A DNA stretch of 64,000 bases. Source: Eleginops maclovinus (Eukaryota > Chordata > Actinopteri > Perciformes > Eleginopidae). Below are positions 3,876 to 51,787 of this stretch, one piece after another. A model generated the notes under the pieces. It did not search any database. It saw only the letters and a program-made list of their open reading frames with translations, and was not told the DNA's origin. The DNA lies in contig NC_086357.1 of assembly GCF_036324505.1 (NCBI RefSeq), positions 26,791,793 through 26,855,792 of the forward strand, written 5' to 3'. Position 1 is the first letter of the stretch. Each line of letters opens with the position of its first letter. The position numbers were made by a program, and so were the translations under genes.

Positions 3876-4298
3876 TGACACACAAATCTAGAACTTCACC
3901 ATCAAGACGTGGCTTTCTGGAACCTGCACAAAGAGCAAGAGGTGTCCAATGTTCAAGGACTTCTTCTATCTACTATTATGAGCCATCCAGAACTCTCGGG
4001 TTTGCTTTCTGTCCCCAGAGTCAGAACGAAACATGGAGAAGTTATTCTGCTCCAAATATCTGGAACAAACTCCCAGTACCCCGCAGGTCTGCTCTTACGA
4101 CCTGTAAATCCAGGCTGAGACTTTCCTTTTTGTCGCTGCTTTTAATTGAACGGTTCATGTCTTAAACTGCACTGTAGCTTTCATTCTTGTATTTTAGAGC
4201 TGTGTTATTCATATTGTATGTTTATTTTACTCCTACTTTGCTTTTTAATCACTACTGCACTATTTCTGAATGCTCTTTACTTTGTGTAAAGCACTTTG
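3875..4298 (+). mobile_element. L2-type LINE 3' end (5' part, interrupted by a SINE)
   Basis: The frame at 3875-4165 encodes YSAPNIWNKLPVPRRSALT then KSRLRL, a decayed version of the C-terminus of L2/CR1-type reverse transcriptase proteins, where an SFSVAAPKLWNSLP ... FKSRLK pattern is usual. The 3' untranslated part runs to a GTAAAGCACTTTG end at 4298. The matching 3' tail resumes at 4550. An old, non-functional copy with the 5' portion missing. Confidence 0.7.
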
Positions 4299-4549
4299 GG
4301 CGGTGGTGGCGAAGTCCATAGGGGCTTGGCCTGGGAACTGGAAGGTCACCAGTTCAAGTCCCCGAAAGACCAAGTGCCACCGTGGTGTCCCTGAGCAAGA
4401 CACTGGTTACCTACACTGCTCCCCGGGCGCCGTACATAATGGCAGCCCACTGCTCCTAACACTAGGTTGGGTCAAATGCAGAGACCGCATTTCGTTGTCC
4501 TAGTACTTGTACTCTGTGCAATGACAATAAAGTTGAATCTTCATCTTTG
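4299..4549 (+). mobile_element. tRNA-derived SINE nested in the L2 element
   Basis: The head resembles a tRNA gene: a degenerate A box (TGGCGAAGTCCATAGGGG, from about 4306) and a B box AGTTCAAGTCC (4351-4361). The body follows (CCCTGAGCAAGACAC ... CTCCCCGGGCGCCG ... GGCAGCCCACTGCTC), then an AATGACAATAAAG tail. CTTTG occurs at both ends (4294-4298 and 4545-4549), a likely short target duplication. The L2 3' tail continues directly after it. Pol III promoter boxes are visible; activity is unlikely given the divergence. Confidence 0.75.
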
Positions 4550-4740: not shown

Positions 4741-5360
4741 TAAAATCATTAAGTGTGTTAATTAATAAAACTGTTTCCCCTTTAATTTAAAAGCTTTCAT
4801 TTCAGTTAAATCAGTTTATTTATTATTTGTATTTATTAAGATGTCTTTAATATTTCTTATGCTTTTATTTATTTGAAATATTTGTTATTTTATTTATTTA
4901 TTAGAATCATCATTTCCTTTATCTCTGTTAATTAATAAAACGGTTTCCACTTTAATTTAAGTGCTTTCATTTCAGGTCATGTGTTATATATTTAACAATT
5001 ATCTTTGGTGTAGGTTATTGGCTGTTTGTTGTTGTTTTCGGTGCGCCTATCTGTGTAAAAAACAGCCAATAACCTACACTAAAATAAATGTTAAATATAT
5101 AAGACATAAAGCACTTAAATTAAAGTGGATGCAGTTTTATTGACTAACAGAGGTAAAGGTAATGATGATTATAATAAATAAAAGCATAACAACTATTTAA
5201 AAATCTTAATAAATCTTAATAATAAATAAACAGATTTAACTGATATGAAACATTTCAATTGAAGTGAAACAGAAAAACAGATTTCTCAAATTAGCCTTAC
5301 TGAAGCATCAATGAGTACGATCGATTTTGTAGTAAAACGACTAATTGATGTGTCATCAAT
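4741..5360. mobile_element. Foldback element with about 250-bp inverted arms
   Basis: The left arm (about 4741-5027) and right arm (about 5060-5290) are inverted copies. The innermost 20 bp, 5008-5027 and 5060-5079 (GTGTAGGTTATTGG core), pair perfectly around a 32-base loop. Pairing continues outward with small mismatches, for example GTTTATTTATTATT against AATAATAAATAAAC. The left arm also carries an internal direct repeat (TTAATTAATAAAAC at about 4758 and 4928). The tail after the right arm (5283-5352) recurs at 8702-8783. Confidence 0.75.
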
Positions 5361-6726: not shown

Positions 6727-6980
6727 GCAGTGGCTCAGTAAGTAGGGGCTTGGCCTGGGAATCGTAGGGTCGCCGGTTCAAGTCCCCGAACAGACTTGAA
6801 AATATGGAAAGTGGACTGCTACTTGGAGAGGTCCCAGGTCCCACCTCCTAGGCCCTGCTGTGGTGCCCTTGAGCAAGGCATCGGACACCTCCAATCCCCC
6901 CTCCCCATTGCTCCCCGGGCGCTGCACAATAGCTGCCCACTGCTCCTAGTACTAGGATGGGTTTAATGCAGAGGACAAGA
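6727..6980 (+). mobile_element. tRNA-derived SINE, full head and body
   Basis: The A-box region TGGCTCAGTAAGTAGGGG starts at 6731 and the B box GGTTCAAGTCC is at 6775-6785. The body contains GTGCCCTTGAGCAAGGCAT, CTCCCCGGGCGCTG and a GCCCACTGCTCCTAGTACTA stretch, ending near GCAGAGGAC and a T run. Very similar to the copy at 27.5 kb. Confidence 0.8.
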
Positions 6981-26506: not shown

Positions 26507-26640
26507 GGAACGTTACATTCGGAAACGTTACATTCGGAACGTTACATTCGGAACGTTACATTCGGAACGTTACATTCGGAACGTTACATTCGGAAACGTT
26601 ACATTCGGAACGTTACATTCGGAACGTTACATTCGGAACG
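26507..26640. repeat. 14-bp minisatellite, 9 units
   Basis: Units are GGAACGTTACATTC. The second and seventh have an extra A (15 bp). Unit lengths 14,15,14,14,14,14,15,14,14 plus a partial unit suggest duplication of a five-unit, 71-bp block. Each unit contains the AACGTT palindrome with a CpG. Confidence 0.95.
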
Positions 26641-27488: not shown

Positions 27489-27765
27489 TTAGCAGTGGCT
27501 CAGTAAGTAGGGGCTTGGACTAGGAATCGTAGGGTCGCCGGTTCAAGTCCCCAAACAGACTTAAAATATGGAAGGTGGACTGCTACTTGGAGAGGTCCCA
27601 GTTCACCTCCTAGGCCCTGCTGTGGTGCCCTTGAGCAAGGCACCGGACACCTCCAATCCCCCCTCCCCATTGCTCCCCGCGCGCTGCACAACAGCTGCCC
27701 ACTGCTCCTAGTACTAGGATGGGTTAAATGCAGAGGACACATTTCACTGTGTGTGCTCTGCTGTG
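27489..27765 (+). mobile_element. tRNA-derived SINE, full head and body
   Basis: The A-box region TGGCTCAGTAAGTAGGGG is followed by the B box GGTTCAAGTCC (27540-27550). The same body as 6727-6980 follows, with few differences (CCCGCGCGCTG for CCCGGGCGCTG). It ends in GCAGAGGACACATTTCACTG. Confidence 0.8.
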
Positions 27766-28090
27766 TGCATGTATGTCTCAGTTCAAATAGAATAAACAGC
27801 TCATTTGATATCATACTTTAAATACGTATGTTTTACATTAAATAGGATTAGATAAATAAATAAACACATCAATAAATATTAAAACATCCATTTATTTATT
27901 TCTATTGATCACATTTTGGGAAATAGTTTTGTCATAGCGTCATGTTAACAAGGCATTGGTAATTATTTAAAATATATTAAATAGAAGAAATAAACATAAG
28001 CAGAAAAAACTAACATAACAACAATAAATTATAATCAACATATTTTAAAAATAGAACAAGTTAGTATGTTTATATAAATATCTTTATTCT

Positions 28091-33182: not shown

Positions 33183-34409
33183 ATGAGCATCTTCAGCTTC
33201 CTCCCCTCCTCCTCCTCCTCCTGCCCCCACTTGTACCACGGTGACGCCACGCCATCGAACGCAACAACCAGCGACATCAACCATATCATCCTGCGGCATT
33301 ACAACCACACAGGCCGCCTGCAGAACCGGACCATCTCCAACCCCCAGAGTCAAATCAGCGCCCCTGTGGTGGTCTTCCTCTGCTTCAGCATCTTCATCAT
33401 CCTGGAGAACCTCCTGGTGCTGGTGGCCGTCATCTCCCGCATCCGCCACAGCCGCCGTTGGGTCTACGTGTGCATCGCCAACATCACGCTCAGCGACCTC
33501 CTCACCGGCGCCGCCTACCTGGTCAACATCTGCCTGTCCGGCAGCCAGACGTTCCGCCTCACCCCGGCCCTGTGGCTCTTCAGGGAAGGGATGCTGTTTG
33601 TGGCTCTTGCGGCGTCCATATTCAGCCTGCTGCTGATAGCGGTGGAGCGGTACACCACCATGATGAAGCCCCTGCCACAGAAGTCCGCCAGGAAGACCTA
33701 CTGCAGGATCTACGGCCTGGTGGCTCTCTGCTGGTTATTGGCTCTGGTGATCGGGTTCCTCCCCCTGCTGGGATGGAACTGTGTGTGCAACCTGGAAGCC
33801 TGCTCCACCCTCCTCCCCCTCTACTCCAAAACCTACATCTTATTCTCCCTCATCATCTTCTTCCTCATCCTGCTGGCTATCGGCGTGCTGTACGGAGCCA
33901 TCTACTGCCACGTTCACAGCAGCGCACACCTAGGTCTTCAGCGCAGCCGCAATCGCTCCCTGGGTCTGCTGAAAACTGTCATCACCATTGTGGGGGTGTT
34001 TCTGGTGTGCTGGGGCCCTCTGTTCCTGCTGTTACTGGTGGATTTCTTCTGTGCCTCCCGCCAGTGTGCGCTTCTGCTCAGCGCTGACTTTTGCATCTCC
34101 CTGGCAGTTCTGAATTCAGGCCTGAACCCCATCATCTATGCGCTGGGCAGCTCTGATATGAGGAAGGACATCGCCAGGCTGCTGTGCTGCTGCTGCCTGA
34201 AGGTGGGCATCTGTCGCCCGGACACCTTCACCTCCAAGGAGACCAGCAGCAACTCGGAGAGCCGGAGGGACAGTCTGAGGAACAGTTTTAACAAAGTCAG
34301 AAATCTGAGCGTGGTCTCCCCACCATCGACGCCCAACAAGCCTCGCAGAACACCCAAAAAATATCGGCTGAGCTCCACCACCAGCTGCCTGTCGGTTTCA
34401 AGTGGTTAA
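33183..34409 (+). CDS. s1pr4: Sphingosine-1-phosphate receptor 4
   Basis: Intact 408-residue class A GPCR in a single exon. S1P receptors bind the lysophospholipid sphingosine-1-phosphate at the plasma membrane; S1PR4 couples mainly to Gi and G12/13 and is prominent in leukocytes. Seven hydrophobic segments lie near residues 60-83, 95-118, 130-153, 174-195, 216-240, 262-287 and 300-321. Visible hallmarks: N-glycosylation sites N26, N41 and N48; N76 and D105; REG (134-136), the ligand phosphate/amine contact of S1P receptors; ERY (155-157); the intraloop cysteine pair C200/C207 and ECL3 pair C290/C295; CWGP (276-279); NPIIY (315-319); a palmitoylatable CCCC (335-338). HYNHTGRL, NITLSDLLTGAAYL, LCWLLA and LYGAIY favour S1PR4 over S1PR1, 3 or 5. 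The tail is serine-rich with an RDSLRNS segment. Human S1PR4 has 384 residues; the extra length is at both ends. The start ATG has G at -3. Confidence 0.92.
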   Translation: MSIFSFLPSSSSSCPHLYHGDATPSNATTSDINHIILRHYNHTGRLQNRTISNPQSQISAPVVVFLCFSIFIILENLLVLVAVISRIRHSRRWVYVCIANITLSDLLTGAAYLVNICLSGSQTFRLTPALWLFREGMLFVALAASIFSLLLIAVERYTTMMKPLPQKSARKTYCRIYGLVALCWLLALVIGFLPLLGWNCVCNLEACSTLLPLYSKTYILFSLIIFFLILLAIGVLYGAIYCHVHSSAHLGLQRSRNRSLGLLKTVITIVGVFLVCWGPLFLLLLVDFFCASRQCALLLSADFCISLAVLNSGLNPIIYALGSSDMRKDIARLLCCCCLKVGICRPDTFTSKETSSNSESRRDSLRNSFNKVRNLSVVSPPSTPNKPRRTPKKYRLSSTTSCLSVSSG

Positions 34410-46299: not shown

Positions 46300-47440
46300 A
46301 TTATCTTTTCATCATTTCTCAATAACGCAGCGATCGTTTGTCATTAATTTTCCTATCACGGTTTTGTAACACCATTGCTTTTCTTTTTTCCTCTTTTCTT
46401 CATCTTTGTTCTGCTGCAACATGTTTTCCCTCCCAGGGCCAAACGATGGTATCTTATGAAAACAAAGAAAACCATTTTCAGACTCATTTCAGCTTTATTA
46501 CATTAAACTGGGTATGGATTAGTAATGGAATGGATGCCGGTAACATCAAAAATAAATCATGCTGCAAAGGAAAGTAGTTAGAAACTCACTGACATTTAGA
46601 GTAATGCACTTTATGCACCGCTGTCGCACACATTCAGGTAGATGAAATGCTTACACAAACCACAGCTAACTTATCAGGCAGGAACAAAGCCCTGAAGACA
46701 ATATCACACGCTGACACCATGAGGAACTTTCTATGGTATAATCTGGTCTATGTTTTAAATGATCAATCCCTCTGCAGCAATTTAAATGAACAGGAATATA
46801 ATATTATTGTGCAAACACAAGAGCAGATGCATCGTCTAATAAGCGTTCCTTTCCTCTGGTCTTGTATGCAGTCTTCAACATTTTTCCTTTGGTGGCTGCC
46901 AGTTATCTGCATTGCACACATTCCCAATCACTGATAATGGAGACCGCTGTGTGACATCAATTACACAGACATAGCAGACATTTCGCTGGGATTACCTGAC
47001 AATGAACTCCAGTCTCAGTCTGGCCTTTGACAGGAAAAGACAGAACAAAAGAGAGTCAGAGAGACACGGGCGAAGGGGGGAGACGTGTTTGCAGTGTTTT
47101 TCAAGGGGAACAATGCTGGAATAAACATGAAGGCTGAGCCGAACAACAATCAGTATGTAACAGTATTCACACTCCGGACGCCGGGGCCTACCTATCAAGC
47201 AAAATATGGTAAATCTGCTCATGAAACATTCATGTTACAGCGAAGAATGGGACTGTCATCTAAAGCTGAAGCTGCCTTGCAAACACTTCAGGGTTCAGCG
47301 GCGGCGTCTGACAGGGTGAAGGGTTTGATTTTTCTCAGGGTCAATGACTCGAGGCTAACTCTGTAGTTGATAGGGTCAATTAAAAAAGAGATCGGAAGAG
47401 TTGGATCTGGGTTTTATTGGTCACACAGATGCTGGTGGAA
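46300..47440. other. Gene-free stretch downstream of the miRNA cluster
   Basis: No coding exon recognised. It probably contains the 3' part of the leftward miRNA primary transcript. An inverted TTTATT (AATAAA on the minus strand) lies at 47413-47418, immediately past mir-24, but may be chance. Confidence 0.4.
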
Positions 47441-47446
47441 AGTGGA

Positions 47447-47520
47447 CTTCACTCCTGTTCCTGCTGAACTGAGCCAGTTTTTTGGTAAAACACTGATACC
47501 AGTTCAGTAGGCACGGGAAG
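47447..47520 (-). ncRNA. mir24: mir-24 precursor hairpin
   Basis: Minus-strand hairpin. The 3p arm (47476-47455) is identical over 22 nt to the conserved vertebrate miR-24-3p as I remember it, with seed GGCTCAG. The 5p arm (47513-47492) reads TGCCTACTGAACTGG and onward, matching the miR-24 5p strand. The arms pair through CTGAACTG/CAGTTCAG and CCT/AGG around a 15-base loop at 47491-47477. It is third in the cluster, after mir-27 (about 1.6 kb upstream on this strand). miR-24-3p represses targets in cell-cycle, apoptosis and haematopoietic control (established). The reverse strand also folds, as at mammalian mir-24/mir-3074 loci. Confidence 0.96.
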
Positions 47521-49154
47521 GCACAGCCCGAATATCATTTTGCTTGAAAATCCAGTGTGGAGTCTGCATGAAAGGCTGTTTTTAAAACCTAACAAAAGGG
47601 ATAGTATGATCCACAAAATGTAATGTTAGACGAGTGGCAACACACAATCTCTGAGTGTCTTTTACAAAGCTAACCAGCTGCTACTGTCAAGCTTCCTGTT
47701 CTTGCATCAAATGCATAATAACAAAGTCAGAATACAACATCTTAATTATAGAAGACATAGGCAGCTGCTAAATCAGAGCCACAGACTGTTCATTTCTCTG
47801 GCTGACAAAACTAAATGTCAATCAAAGCTACTTAGCTAATTAAACTTACATTATTAAATGACTAAAACACTGCCTCGGGCTGACTAAAACAAAGGTCTTC
47901 CTCCATATGAATACATCAAGTATATTTTGTGAAACCCTAAGGCTAAGTTTCTAAAAAAGTAAACAGCATTGCATTCATTCATAACATGCAGGGGGAAAGC
48001 ATTATTGCGTTACAGTGAAGTGTTAGCTTTGGTAGTGTTAGCAGCATAGCCTTTGACAGGAAAATGTGACTTATTTAGCAATAACATTCATAACTTTAGC
48101 TTACATACTCGTTGATATCCTTAACCTGTATGTCTTTAATGTTAATGTTACAAGGACATTTCTCTGCTAGCATGTTAACTTGCCCCAAATCATAACTGCT
48201 AACGTTAGCTTAGCCTCGGCTAGCATCCACATAATGGAGAAATAAAACAGCTAGTTGTGAAAAGATGTCTATGTTTCAGATTAGCTTGCAAGACCGTTTT
48301 CTTGATCTTCTAGACATTGATCTCTCTGAAATTGCTTGATTGGATTTTCACCATTTAAACTGTATTTAAAAACATTCCCCCTCTGTTGTTGTTTTGCATT
48401 TCCAACTGTGAAGATAAAACTTACCAATCTCTCACAGTGAGGAGCTTAGACACGCTGTTGCATCTCTCTAGCTTGCGTTAGAGCAGATAAAGCACTGCTT
48501 AATCCATTTTGTTTTATTGGAGTTGTGCACTTCTGCTCAGGTTTTGGGCAACGAAAAGAGATCATACTTCCTAAATTGTGAGGATTTCTCTATAATATAT
48601 CACCTTGAGAACTGCTTAGGCTTGTGGAGAAATTAAAAGCATGCTGACTTTCTCGAGGCCAGGGGGTTATAAACGATGAACCAGGTGTATGCAGGGTTTC
48701 TTCTTGAAGTCCAGGTTTCCGTAGACATGAACTTGGCCTGCTCCAACAGGTCTGCCATTTAGCACCACATTCCTAAAAAATCACAATATAACCTGTGGCA
48801 TTTTGAAGTCCACTGTAAACGTGGGCCGAACCGTCTCACTGGAAGGCAGTCAAATGTATTCGGTATGCATGATTATTCTTGCCACATGTGTGAGGTAAGA
48901 TAAAACAGTTGTTGCTTCAGGCAGAGACGATTAAAGTACAGGTTGTCATACGTCTGGACGGCATTGCATAATGAAGACTTGTGTTTGGCCCATTTAACCG
49001 TGCATAGTTCCACGATCTTCACTCTTTCTTCTCACCTCGCTGCCTCCTTCTCCACCTAATCTCTCCCACTCCTCCCTCCTCCTTTTCTTCATATGCGAGA
49101 TCATAAAGTTCTTTCCGTTCACCGGAACAAATCCCCTCCATCGAATCAACTATT
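47521..49154 (-). other. Spacer between mir-27 and mir-24 in the presumed primary transcript
   Basis: About 1.6 kb with no coding frame or repeat boundary recognised. It is expected to be part of one leftward primary transcript. Mammalian clusters of this family have a spacer of only a few hundred bases or less here, so the region has expanded or the mammalian one contracted. Confidence 0.5.
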
Positions 49155-49238
49155 TCACCTCAGGCACTGAACTTAGCCACTGTGAACAACACATAGCAGG
49201 GATCAATGCTCACCAATTAGCTAAGCTCTGTGCCTTTA
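49155..49238 (-). ncRNA. mir27: mir-27 precursor hairpin (27e-like)
   Basis: Minus-strand hairpin. The 3p arm (49186-49165) has the miR-27 seed TCACAGT and GGCTAAGTT core but ends CAGTG instead of the CCGC of miR-27a or CTGC of miR-27b. This resembles the fish-specific miR-27e form as I remember it. The 5p arm (49229-49208) reads AGAGCTTAGCTAATTGG and onward, close to miR-27b 5p. GAGCTTAGC pairs with GCTAAGTTC and GTGAGC with GTTCAC, loop 49207-49187. miR-27 acts in lipid metabolism, adipogenesis and vascular development. Middle member of the cluster. Confidence 0.95.
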
Positions 49239-49711
49239 GCAAGTGGGTGGCTGGCTTTTTGATGGAATACAGCCGCTGCATGAAGACCTTTACGTGACTA
49301 CTCACTGGTAAAGTTTTTTTAAAAAGGCCTCTGATGGGGATCATTCGTATTACGTTTCAAAGTGTGCTGCCAACGGAGGATCCTAGACTTTATTTGAAAC
49401 ACCAAAATCCTGTCGTTGTTTATTAATCTAAATTCCACGAGCCAAAACATGATCCACTCTCCAAAAAAATGTGTTCATATGCATTTAAATCGACTTCCTG
49501 GCTGTTTTGAAAGTGGAGAATAGTGAAGACAGTTTCAATTTCAGACAGCTGCATATTTAACTGCAGTTTTTTCCATGTGAGAAACTTCAAGTCCGCTGAG
49601 AGAGGTTGATCACCAATATCCGTCCGAGATCCAGTGTCAGATTCTAAAGGAGCAGCCAAGAAGACGACACAAAAGCATCCGAATGTAGAAAAGGGACTCT
49701 GGGTCTGAGCT
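49239..49711 (-). other. Spacer between mir-23a and mir-27
   Basis: About 470 bases with no second hairpin recognised. A minus-strand frame across it has no domain and is not called as coding. Confidence 0.5.
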
Positions 49712-49792
49712 GTGAAGGAGTGGAAATCCCTGGCAATGTGATTTTTGTTTCTCTTTGTGCATCAAATCACGGTGCCAGGAACCCTCCCCGCC
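49712..49792 (-). ncRNA. mir23a: mir-23a precursor hairpin
   Basis: Minus-strand hairpin. The 3p arm (49742-49721) carries the miR-23 seed TCACATT followed by GCCAGGGATTTCC, identical to miR-23a rather than 23b (which ends TTACC). The 5p arm (49784-49763) reads GGGTTCCTGGCACCG and onward. CCTGGCA pairs with TGCCAGG and GTGATT with AATCAC around a 20-base loop. First member of the leftward cluster mir-23a, mir-27, mir-24. In mammals MIR23A~27A~24-2 lies on 19p13 and is driven by one promoter, with roles in haematopoiesis and vessel and muscle biology (established). Confidence 0.96.
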
Positions 49793-50230
49793 ACAGCCGG
49801 GGTTGAAGCTTGATCCACCCGGGACTTCTCCGCCCCTCTGTATCTTCTTCAAAAGTCCTCCTGGGCTCCAGATGCCTGACCTGAAAGAGAAGAGGTAAAA
49901 AAAAACTAGAACTCATGTGAAGATTATCCGTGATGCACTTTAAACCGTGTAACCCTGGGATAAAGGCCTCTGGTAGACCCCCACACGATACAGACTGTTG
50001 AAATCTTGGGCAATAAACCTGCAATGTGCAATACACACTCTTCTTTTAAATTGTGCAATACCCCAACATGTCATTTTTATAAGGTCTCAATACTTTAATA
50101 TTATGTGACTTTTTTAATTGCTGCGACTCATTTTTTAGCCATGGTTTTGTCCTTATTTGTCGTTATTTGCATCTTATCTTTATTATCGCTTGCCTTTTTT
50201 ACCTGCTGTACCACTTATGCTTTAACAGGG

Positions 50231-50280: not shown

Positions 50281-50751
50281 ATCTAAAAAAAGACGTTTAA
50301 ATGTGTGGGAAGTCTCTGCAGACTGCACTGTGCACAGGTCAGCAGGATGTAGCAGATGTGGATTCTGGCTGGAACAAGCAGAGCCAGCTACCTGGTGCAT
50401 TTGTTTAAAGCAAATCAGGGGCAAAAAAGTAAACACCCGCTTGTTTGAAATGGCAAGGGCAAATCTGTCTGGTGGTGCACGTGGATTTCAATACTCCTGC
50501 TATTGAATACCAGCCGAGGAGAACGTGCTACCAAAAAGGAGATCTGTGTCCTGTACAAGAAAGCAAACTATGAAAAGATTCAGTCTCTGTTTCACATTAG
50601 TCTCAGGCCAGGGAGGTGTGTCTGATTTGTTGTCCCATTGTAGGTGGCTGGACGTAGCCTGCTGGGTGGAAACTCTTACAACTTCCTTCTGAAAAAAGTG
50701 AATTTTCGAAGTGAGGAACGTGGGGGGTTTTTTGCACTTGAAGGGCAAGTC

Positions 50752-51787
50752 AAAACGACATTTCAAAAAACACCACAACATTTCAAAAATTACGGAAAGG
50801 GTTTTCCTTTAGGGAGAACACTTCTTGTTTGTGATTGGACAGAGCTAGTCGGAGAAACACTGCTCTGATTGGTTGTTTGACCGCGCTGAGCCGGAAAGAA
50901 CGGACCCTGAAAGTGTGGTTGAAGAGTTTGGTAATTTGTGCACTATATGACAAATGCTAGTATTGCTCGCAGGCTGTTAAAGTATCTGATCTAGTGGGTC
51001 TTAATAACCTACGCCTTCACGGTTCTAAGTGACAGGTCGATGTCGTGTTGGGTTGACAGCATGTCGAGGACAACTCCATATGCATATCCTTTGTTCAAAT
51101 ATTTCCGGTACCACTTTACAATAAGATACCCCTATAAAGGATTCATAAAGGGTTTATAATGAGTTTGTAAACACTTTATTAACCATTAAGAACCAGTTAT
51201 AAACCAGTTCTAACATGGTTTTCATACATCAACACAGGCTCCCTATTTGGCAAGGTGACTAAGCCTTATATTGGCTACCTAGCTTCCTTCCTCTTCTTCA
51301 TCAGCCAGCATCCTTGGTATCTGTTGTTCACTGAGTTGGTTCTCCCCCCATCAATCTTCATGTTTCTTGGCATCTCTTGAGCTAAGTAGCTAATAGCTTT
51401 AAGGCTTAGCAGAACAGATAAATGTGGGCTCACTATTTGGCAAGCCACCGGTCACAGTGGCCTGTTTATCTCTCGTCTGATAAAAGCTGATTGATGATTT
51501 ATAAAGTGTTCACAACCTGATTAATAAATGAATTACAAACTAAACCCTTATAAGGGTAGTGTTATTGTAAAGTGGTACCATATCTCTATAAACTGAGTTT
51601 AAAATGTGTGCAGACACAGCTGAGTAGTACCAAACAGGGAAGACGACCAACCAATCACAGCAGTGTTTCTCCGGTTATCTCTGTCTAATCACAAACAAAA
51701 CGGGTTCTACCTAAAGAAATATACTTTCCGTAATTTTTGAAATGTTTTTTGCAATGTCATTGTGTTTTGTCAAATGTCGTTATGACA
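50752..51787. mobile_element. Long inverted-repeat element with a nested insertion
   Basis: The left arm (about 50752-50882) and right arm (about 51641-51787) are inverted copies. Shared pieces include CATTTCAAAAATTACGGAAA, TTTGTGATTGGACAGAG, GGAGAAACACTGCT and TGATTGGTTG. No transposase frame. A second inverted-repeat element (51107-51579) sits inside. Its right-hand side also lies upstream of the leftward miRNA cluster. Confidence 0.75.
51107..51579. mobile_element. GGTACC-ended MITE nested in the 50.75-51.79 kb element
   Basis: Inverted ends GGTACCACTTTACAATAA (51107-51124) and the inverse of TTATTGTAAAGTGGTACC (51562-51579), 18 of 18 matching. An imperfect 8-bp flanking duplication (ATATTTCC / ATATCTCT) suggests a hAT-type insertion. 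473 bp, no coding frame. Confidence 0.8.

Follow-up and report, generated by a model that had tools for sequence, protein, structure and literature searches.

The mir-23, mir-27 and mir-24 families are transcribed by RNA polymerase II and cut by Drosha and Dicer, and it is mainly their 3p arms that guide Argonaute by means of their seeds. The closest described systems to the locus reported here are the miR-27e of fishes and the mammalian miR-23a~27a~24-2 (human 19p13) and miR-23b~27b~24-1 (human 9q22) clusters. According to PMC3517579, the human miR-23a cluster is intergenic, has its own upstream promoter and is adjoined by mir-181c/d, C9orf3 is the host gene of the human 23b~27b~24-1 cluster, and a single base separates 23a from 23b. 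The human 23a cluster lies between ZSWIM4 and NANOS3, an order that is reported as conserved across human, mouse and rat (PMC3517579, PMC2632650).

A further member, miR-27e, is given in PMC3156240 for zebrafish, bighead carp, silver carp, fugu and Tetraodon. Zebrafish and both carps have 27a as well as 27e there, fugu and Tetraodon have 27b, 27c and 27e without 27a, and only 27a and/or 27b are given for human, cow, mouse, chicken and Xenopus. In bichir, miR-27e is reported alongside 27a, 27b and 27d (PMC4927183), and tilapia miR-27e has been measured by sequencing and qRT-PCR in published work. A pig cloning paper also prints the 22 letters of the miR-27e arm described below, for a pig microRNA with conservation in dre, fru and tni; each of the five miR-27 entries for pig has a read count of 4, and they may derive from one set of reads (PMC2644714). 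The zebrafish microRNAs tabulated as lying within 3 kb of each other include 23a-3/27a, 23b/27d and 23a-2/27c, with 27e absent from the table (PMC2427041). In the accessible parts of the literature searched, this table included, we found no published 23a~27e~24 grouping.

Here we describe a locus in a 64 kb window, by which we mean the whole stretch of DNA analysed. It is very probably a vertebrate mir-23a~mir-27e~mir-24 cluster of a known kind, whose hairpins are likely co-transcribed and are predicted to be processed to miR-23a-3p, miR-27e-3p and miR-24-3p.

Hairpins, arms and member identity

The whole window was scanned with Rfam at the curated gathering cut-offs and then rescanned at a looser threshold of E <= 1. 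At the cut-offs there are three matches, the mir-23, mir-27 and mir-24 hairpins, all on the minus strand and in the order 23-27-24 (Table 1), and no other Rfam family reaches its cut-off in the 64 kb. The loosened scan gives nine matches: the three hairpins, their three reverse strands, all below cut-off (mir-24 39.8, mir-23 32.6 and mir-27 27.9 bits), and three weak sub-cut-off matches elsewhere in the window, which we read as chance. No additional Rfam family lies amid the three hairpins at E <= 1. Each hairpin combines a full-length covariance-model match to its family with a conserved 3p arm, whose seed is intact, and with pairing between the 5p arm and the 3p arm. The Rfam matches, the folds and the arm strings together establish the hairpins, their arms and the order in which they lie. 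A preliminary description had already proposed a full mir-23~27~24 cluster in the ancestral order on the minus strand, the three 5' ends of the 3p arms listed in Table 1, and a paired mature-like and star-like arm in every hairpin; the three full-length Rfam matches, the exact arm strings and the predicted folds, respectively, bear this out. Its remark that protein-based annotation would overlook the cluster is correct yet trivial, because the Rfam scan detects the hairpins at once.

Measured from the miR-23 5p arm to the far end of the miR-24 3p arm, the cluster is 2330 bases long; its inter-arm gaps are 492 bases between mir-23 and mir-27 and 1650 bases between mir-27 and mir-24. These gaps are wider than what we take to be the spacing of the human 19p13 cluster. 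The three members lie on the same strand, in the order 23-27-24, within the 10 kb given as the cluster distance limit in PMC4144971.

The miR-27 3p arm matches dre-miR-27e-3p at 22 of 22 bases, in the form given by PMC7893006, where small RNAs of zebrafish embryos were sequenced. The 3p arms of miR-23 and miR-24 have exactly the letters that PMC2644714 prints for miR-23a and miR-24. The miR-27e arm makes a fish the likely source of this DNA, although the pig entry mentioned above speaks against taking miR-27e as confined to fishes. The likeness to the miR-27e of fishes (zebrafish, fugu, Tetraodon, carps, tilapia and bichir) is this 22-base identity to the zebrafish sequence. The name mir-23a~mir-27~mir-24 used in the preliminary description fits the miR-23 arm, while its miR-27 has to be specified as miR-27e. 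The cluster kind and its members are already known, and what is corrected here is the miR-27e name and the strength of the claim on 19p13. The locus thereby gains a clean annotation as a regulatory cluster of known type, in which precursors and mature arms have exact positions, and nothing is altered in the current understanding of how miR-23/27/24 work.

Table 1. Positions of the cluster and of neighbouring features in the 64 kb window
Feature	Positions	Strand	Remarks
Myosin IX-like piece (probable), RA domain, 32 residues	2..97	-	cut by window edge
Sphingosine-1-phosphate receptor ORF, probable s1pr4	33183..34409	+	convergent with cluster
AATAAA, possible poly(A) signal	47413..47418	-	37 bases past miR-24 3p arm; may be chance
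mir-24 precursor hairpin	47452..47521	-	Rfam RF00178, 79.2 bits (cut-off 50), E 3.7e-17, full length
miR-24-3p mature arm (predicted product)	47455..47476	-	exact string, once in window; 5' end 47476
miR-24 5p star-like arm (predicted)	47492..47514	-	paired with 3p arm in predicted fold
mir-27 (mir-27e) precursor hairpin	49159..49238	-	Rfam RF00644, 80.2 bits (cut-off 48.5), E 1.4e-16, full length
miR-27e-3p mature arm (predicted product)	49165..49186	-	exact string, once in window; 5' end 49186
miR-27 5p star-like arm (predicted)	49208..49229	-	paired with 3p arm in predicted fold
mir-23 precursor hairpin	49714..49792	-	Rfam RF00642, 66.9 bits (cut-off 52), E 8.1e-13, full length
miR-23a 3p mature arm (predicted product)	49722..49742	-	exact string, once in window; 5' end 49742
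miR-23 5p star-like arm (predicted)	49763..49784	-	paired with 3p arm in predicted fold

Neighbouring genes and relation to the human clusters

A distance of 13 kb separates the cluster from the 3' end of a 1.2 kb sphingosine-1-phosphate receptor ORF, towards which the cluster is oriented. The ORF carries a 7tm_1 domain (Pfam). Among the best 60 of its 518 PDB matches the closest relatives are S1PR3 (E 1.3e-84) and S1PR1 (E 1.2e-83), and no S1PR4 entry is found among these 60. Its identity is 49% to a human S1PR4 sequence and 43% to a human S1PR3 sequence, neither of them taken from a database record. The ORF is probably s1pr4, a reading that is well favoured, not proven, by this side-by-side comparison of S1PR4 with S1PR3. 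In the 2.1 kb that follow the ORF there is one 7-mer match to the miR-23 seed, which may be due to chance, and none to the miR-27 or miR-24 seeds.

At the window edge, a short piece resembles a human MYO9B sequence not taken from a database record (53% over 30 residues, E 0.001) and has no match in Pfam or PDB. The BLOSUM62 scores of 78 against this MYO9B sequence and 71 against a MYO9A sequence of the same kind barely separate the two, and we treat the fragment as a likely myosin IX piece of either the MYO9B or the MYO9A type. The preliminary description had placed the cluster in otherwise gene-free DNA. A Pfam scan that bears on this in part covered 19 of 202 listed ORFs with at least 70 codons, and among these the receptor ORF alone passes the curated cut-off. 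A crude exon predictor based on splice sites and codon usage proposed 18 exons, of which one falls within the receptor ORF; these candidates were inspected by eye and not used further.

The locus resembles the mammalian miR-23a~27a~24-2 cluster in its members and their order, in the miR-23a and miR-24 3p arms and in the minus-strand intergenic setting. It differs from it at the 3p end of miR-27, which reads ..UUCAGUG here and ..UUCCGC in human, and in having no mir-181c/d within the window, where Rfam finds no mir-181 at the cut-off. Orthology to the human 19p13 cluster is plausible rather than established. S1PR4 is located on human 19p, and the preliminary description had called the 19p13 linkage with S1PR4 and MYO9B meaningful. 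The S1PR4 part of this linkage is fairly well supported, but the MYO9B part consists of one edge fragment and mir-181 is not found in the 64 kb. The common chromosome arm of mir-23a, S1PR4 and MYO9B is only suggestive, as weak evidence of orthology, because the immediate mammalian neighbours of the cluster are ZSWIM4, NANOS3 and mir-181c/d.

This raises the question whether the locus might instead be the orthologue of human 23b~27b~24-1 at 9q22, or a third ancient copy that was lost in mammals. We consider this conceivable but less likely than not. When compared with human hairpins, whose sequences were not taken from database records, mir-23 scores 73 against 23b and 56 against 23a, mir-27 scores 91 against 27b and 64 against 27a, and mir-24 scores 90 against 24-1 and 79 against 24-2. 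The greater closeness to 23a/27a/24-2 that a 19p13 orthologue should have is not seen against these sequences. All three hairpins score higher against 23b/27b/24-1, and so the mir-23a name alone is no proof of 19p13 orthology. The likeness may, however, reflect shared ancestry, with the star arms of the human 19p copy perhaps the most changed and the 23b likeness perhaps ancestral; since the human 19p copy may have drifted in this way, the hairpin scores do not overturn the evidence of S1PR4. The mature miR-23 also has the 23a form, differing by one base inside its 21-base 3p arm from that of the 9q22 cluster, and the neighbouring receptor is closer to S1PR4 than to S1PR3. That Rfam finds no mir-181 in the 64 kb, where the human 23a cluster is adjoined by mir-181c/d, is a point in favour of an origin other than 19p13.

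The published distribution of miR-27e can be argued both ways. Zebrafish, the two carps and bichir, whose lineage split before the teleost genome duplication, are each reported to have 27a as well as 27e, which favours 27e as a copy apart from 27a. In contrast, fugu and Tetraodon are reported with 27e and without 27a, so 27e could be their 27a; moreover, published microRNA names follow the mature sequence and not gene trees. A more specific proposal treats this s1pr4-linked mir-27e cluster as a third ancient vertebrate copy, apart from both 19p13 and 9q22 and lost in mammals, whose pairing with an S1P receptor would predate the vertebrate genome duplications. We regard this as unlikely. For the matching of fish mir-23~27~24 copies to the human clusters, the s1pr4-like neighbour offers one gene-order marker. 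We found no paper on this gene order (s1pr4, myo9b and mir-23~27~24; synteny or duplication) in the literature searched.

Hairpin stability, transcription and processing

The preliminary description had suggested folding as a check on the hairpins. Each of them folds into one main hairpin, but the margin over shuffled sequences is modest for mir-24 (z -1.93, 8 of 200 shuffles as good), compared with none of 200 shuffles as good for mir-23 (z -3.75) and for mir-27 (z -4.44). In a 400-nt context the mean probability of their own pairs is 0.69 for mir-23, 0.97 for mir-27 and 0.83 for mir-24. When 12784 segments of 80 nt from the two strands were scanned blind, 362 merged single-loop hairpins of at least 24 pairs were left; mir-27 ranks 8th and mir-23 21st among them, and mir-24 failed the filter. 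With stem-loops this common in the window and 8 of 200 shuffles equalling mir-24, hairpin energy is too weak alone as proof of reality. Stability by itself neither singles out the hairpins nor decides mir-24; the Rfam family models do.

The modest result for mir-24 would fit a silent or decayed copy in which processing has been lost. This is very improbable, for each 3p arm agrees letter for letter with a printed mature microRNA, the Rfam matches are full length, and the conservation of three separate hairpins would be unexpected in a dead copy. Stable stem-loops are common in the window, but that chance stem-loops merely resemble the families is refuted by E-values of 8e-13 to 4e-17 for three families on one strand in the expected order. 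The locus is an ordinary and probably functional example of a familiar type of gene cluster whose members are known.

The reverse strands have fold z values of -3.01 for mir-23, -1.31 for mir-27 and -4.68 for mir-24. The plus strand opposite mir-24 (47450-47519) has a more stable fold than mir-24 itself (z -4.68 vs -1.93). An antisense mir-24 gene at this position was considered and rejected, as the match of 39.8 bits is below the cut-off of 50 and came without further support. In human, mouse and rat, mir-3074 sits opposite mir-24 (PMC4144971).

By the established biology of these families, the three hairpins would share one minus-strand primary transcript that Drosha and Dicer would cut, the 3p arms would be loaded into Argonaute and their seeds would guide the repression of mRNAs. 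A putative promoter of the cluster's own is likely to lie upstream of 49792, since the cluster stands 13 kb past the s1pr4-like ORF and faces it. A point against a single transcript is the 1650-base gap between mir-27 and mir-24, which is wide enough for mir-24 to have a transcript of its own. Taking assumed positions for the processing motifs, we find a CNNC 16-18 nt past the 3p arm for mir-24 (at 17 and 18), which could be chance, and none for mir-23 or mir-27; a UG before the 5p arm is found for none of the three at the three positions tested in each. A possible poly(A) signal follows mir-24 (Table 1), and in mammals the signal is given as 669 to 1751 bases past mir-24-2 (PMC2632650). On the minus strand at 49881-49905, about 90 bases upstream of mir-23, a pyrimidine run ending in CAG was noticed by eye. 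It resembles a 3' splice site, and the primary transcript might be spliced.

Repeats and other features of the window

About 1 kb upstream of mir-23 lies an inverted repeat (50749-51786) with arms of 112 nt at 83% and 41 nt at 83%, separated by 746 and 956 nt, which resembles a short DNA transposon or a remnant of one. Three plus-strand open frames (4270-4503, 6742-6966 and 27507-27821) are alike, with VGAWPGNRRVAGSSP or near it followed by ..ALHNSCPLLLVLGWV; they resemble a dispersed repeat, perhaps a SINE, and ARAGORN, run with the bacterial code, finds no tRNA in them or elsewhere in the window. At 5001-5083 there is a long near-perfect palindromic hairpin with arms TGTAGGTTATTGGCTGTTT; its Rfam match to mir-3613, at 24.5 bits, is far below the cut-off of 91. 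The hairpin scan also picked up a short tandem array with a GTAACGTTCCGAAT-like unit at 26551-26630.
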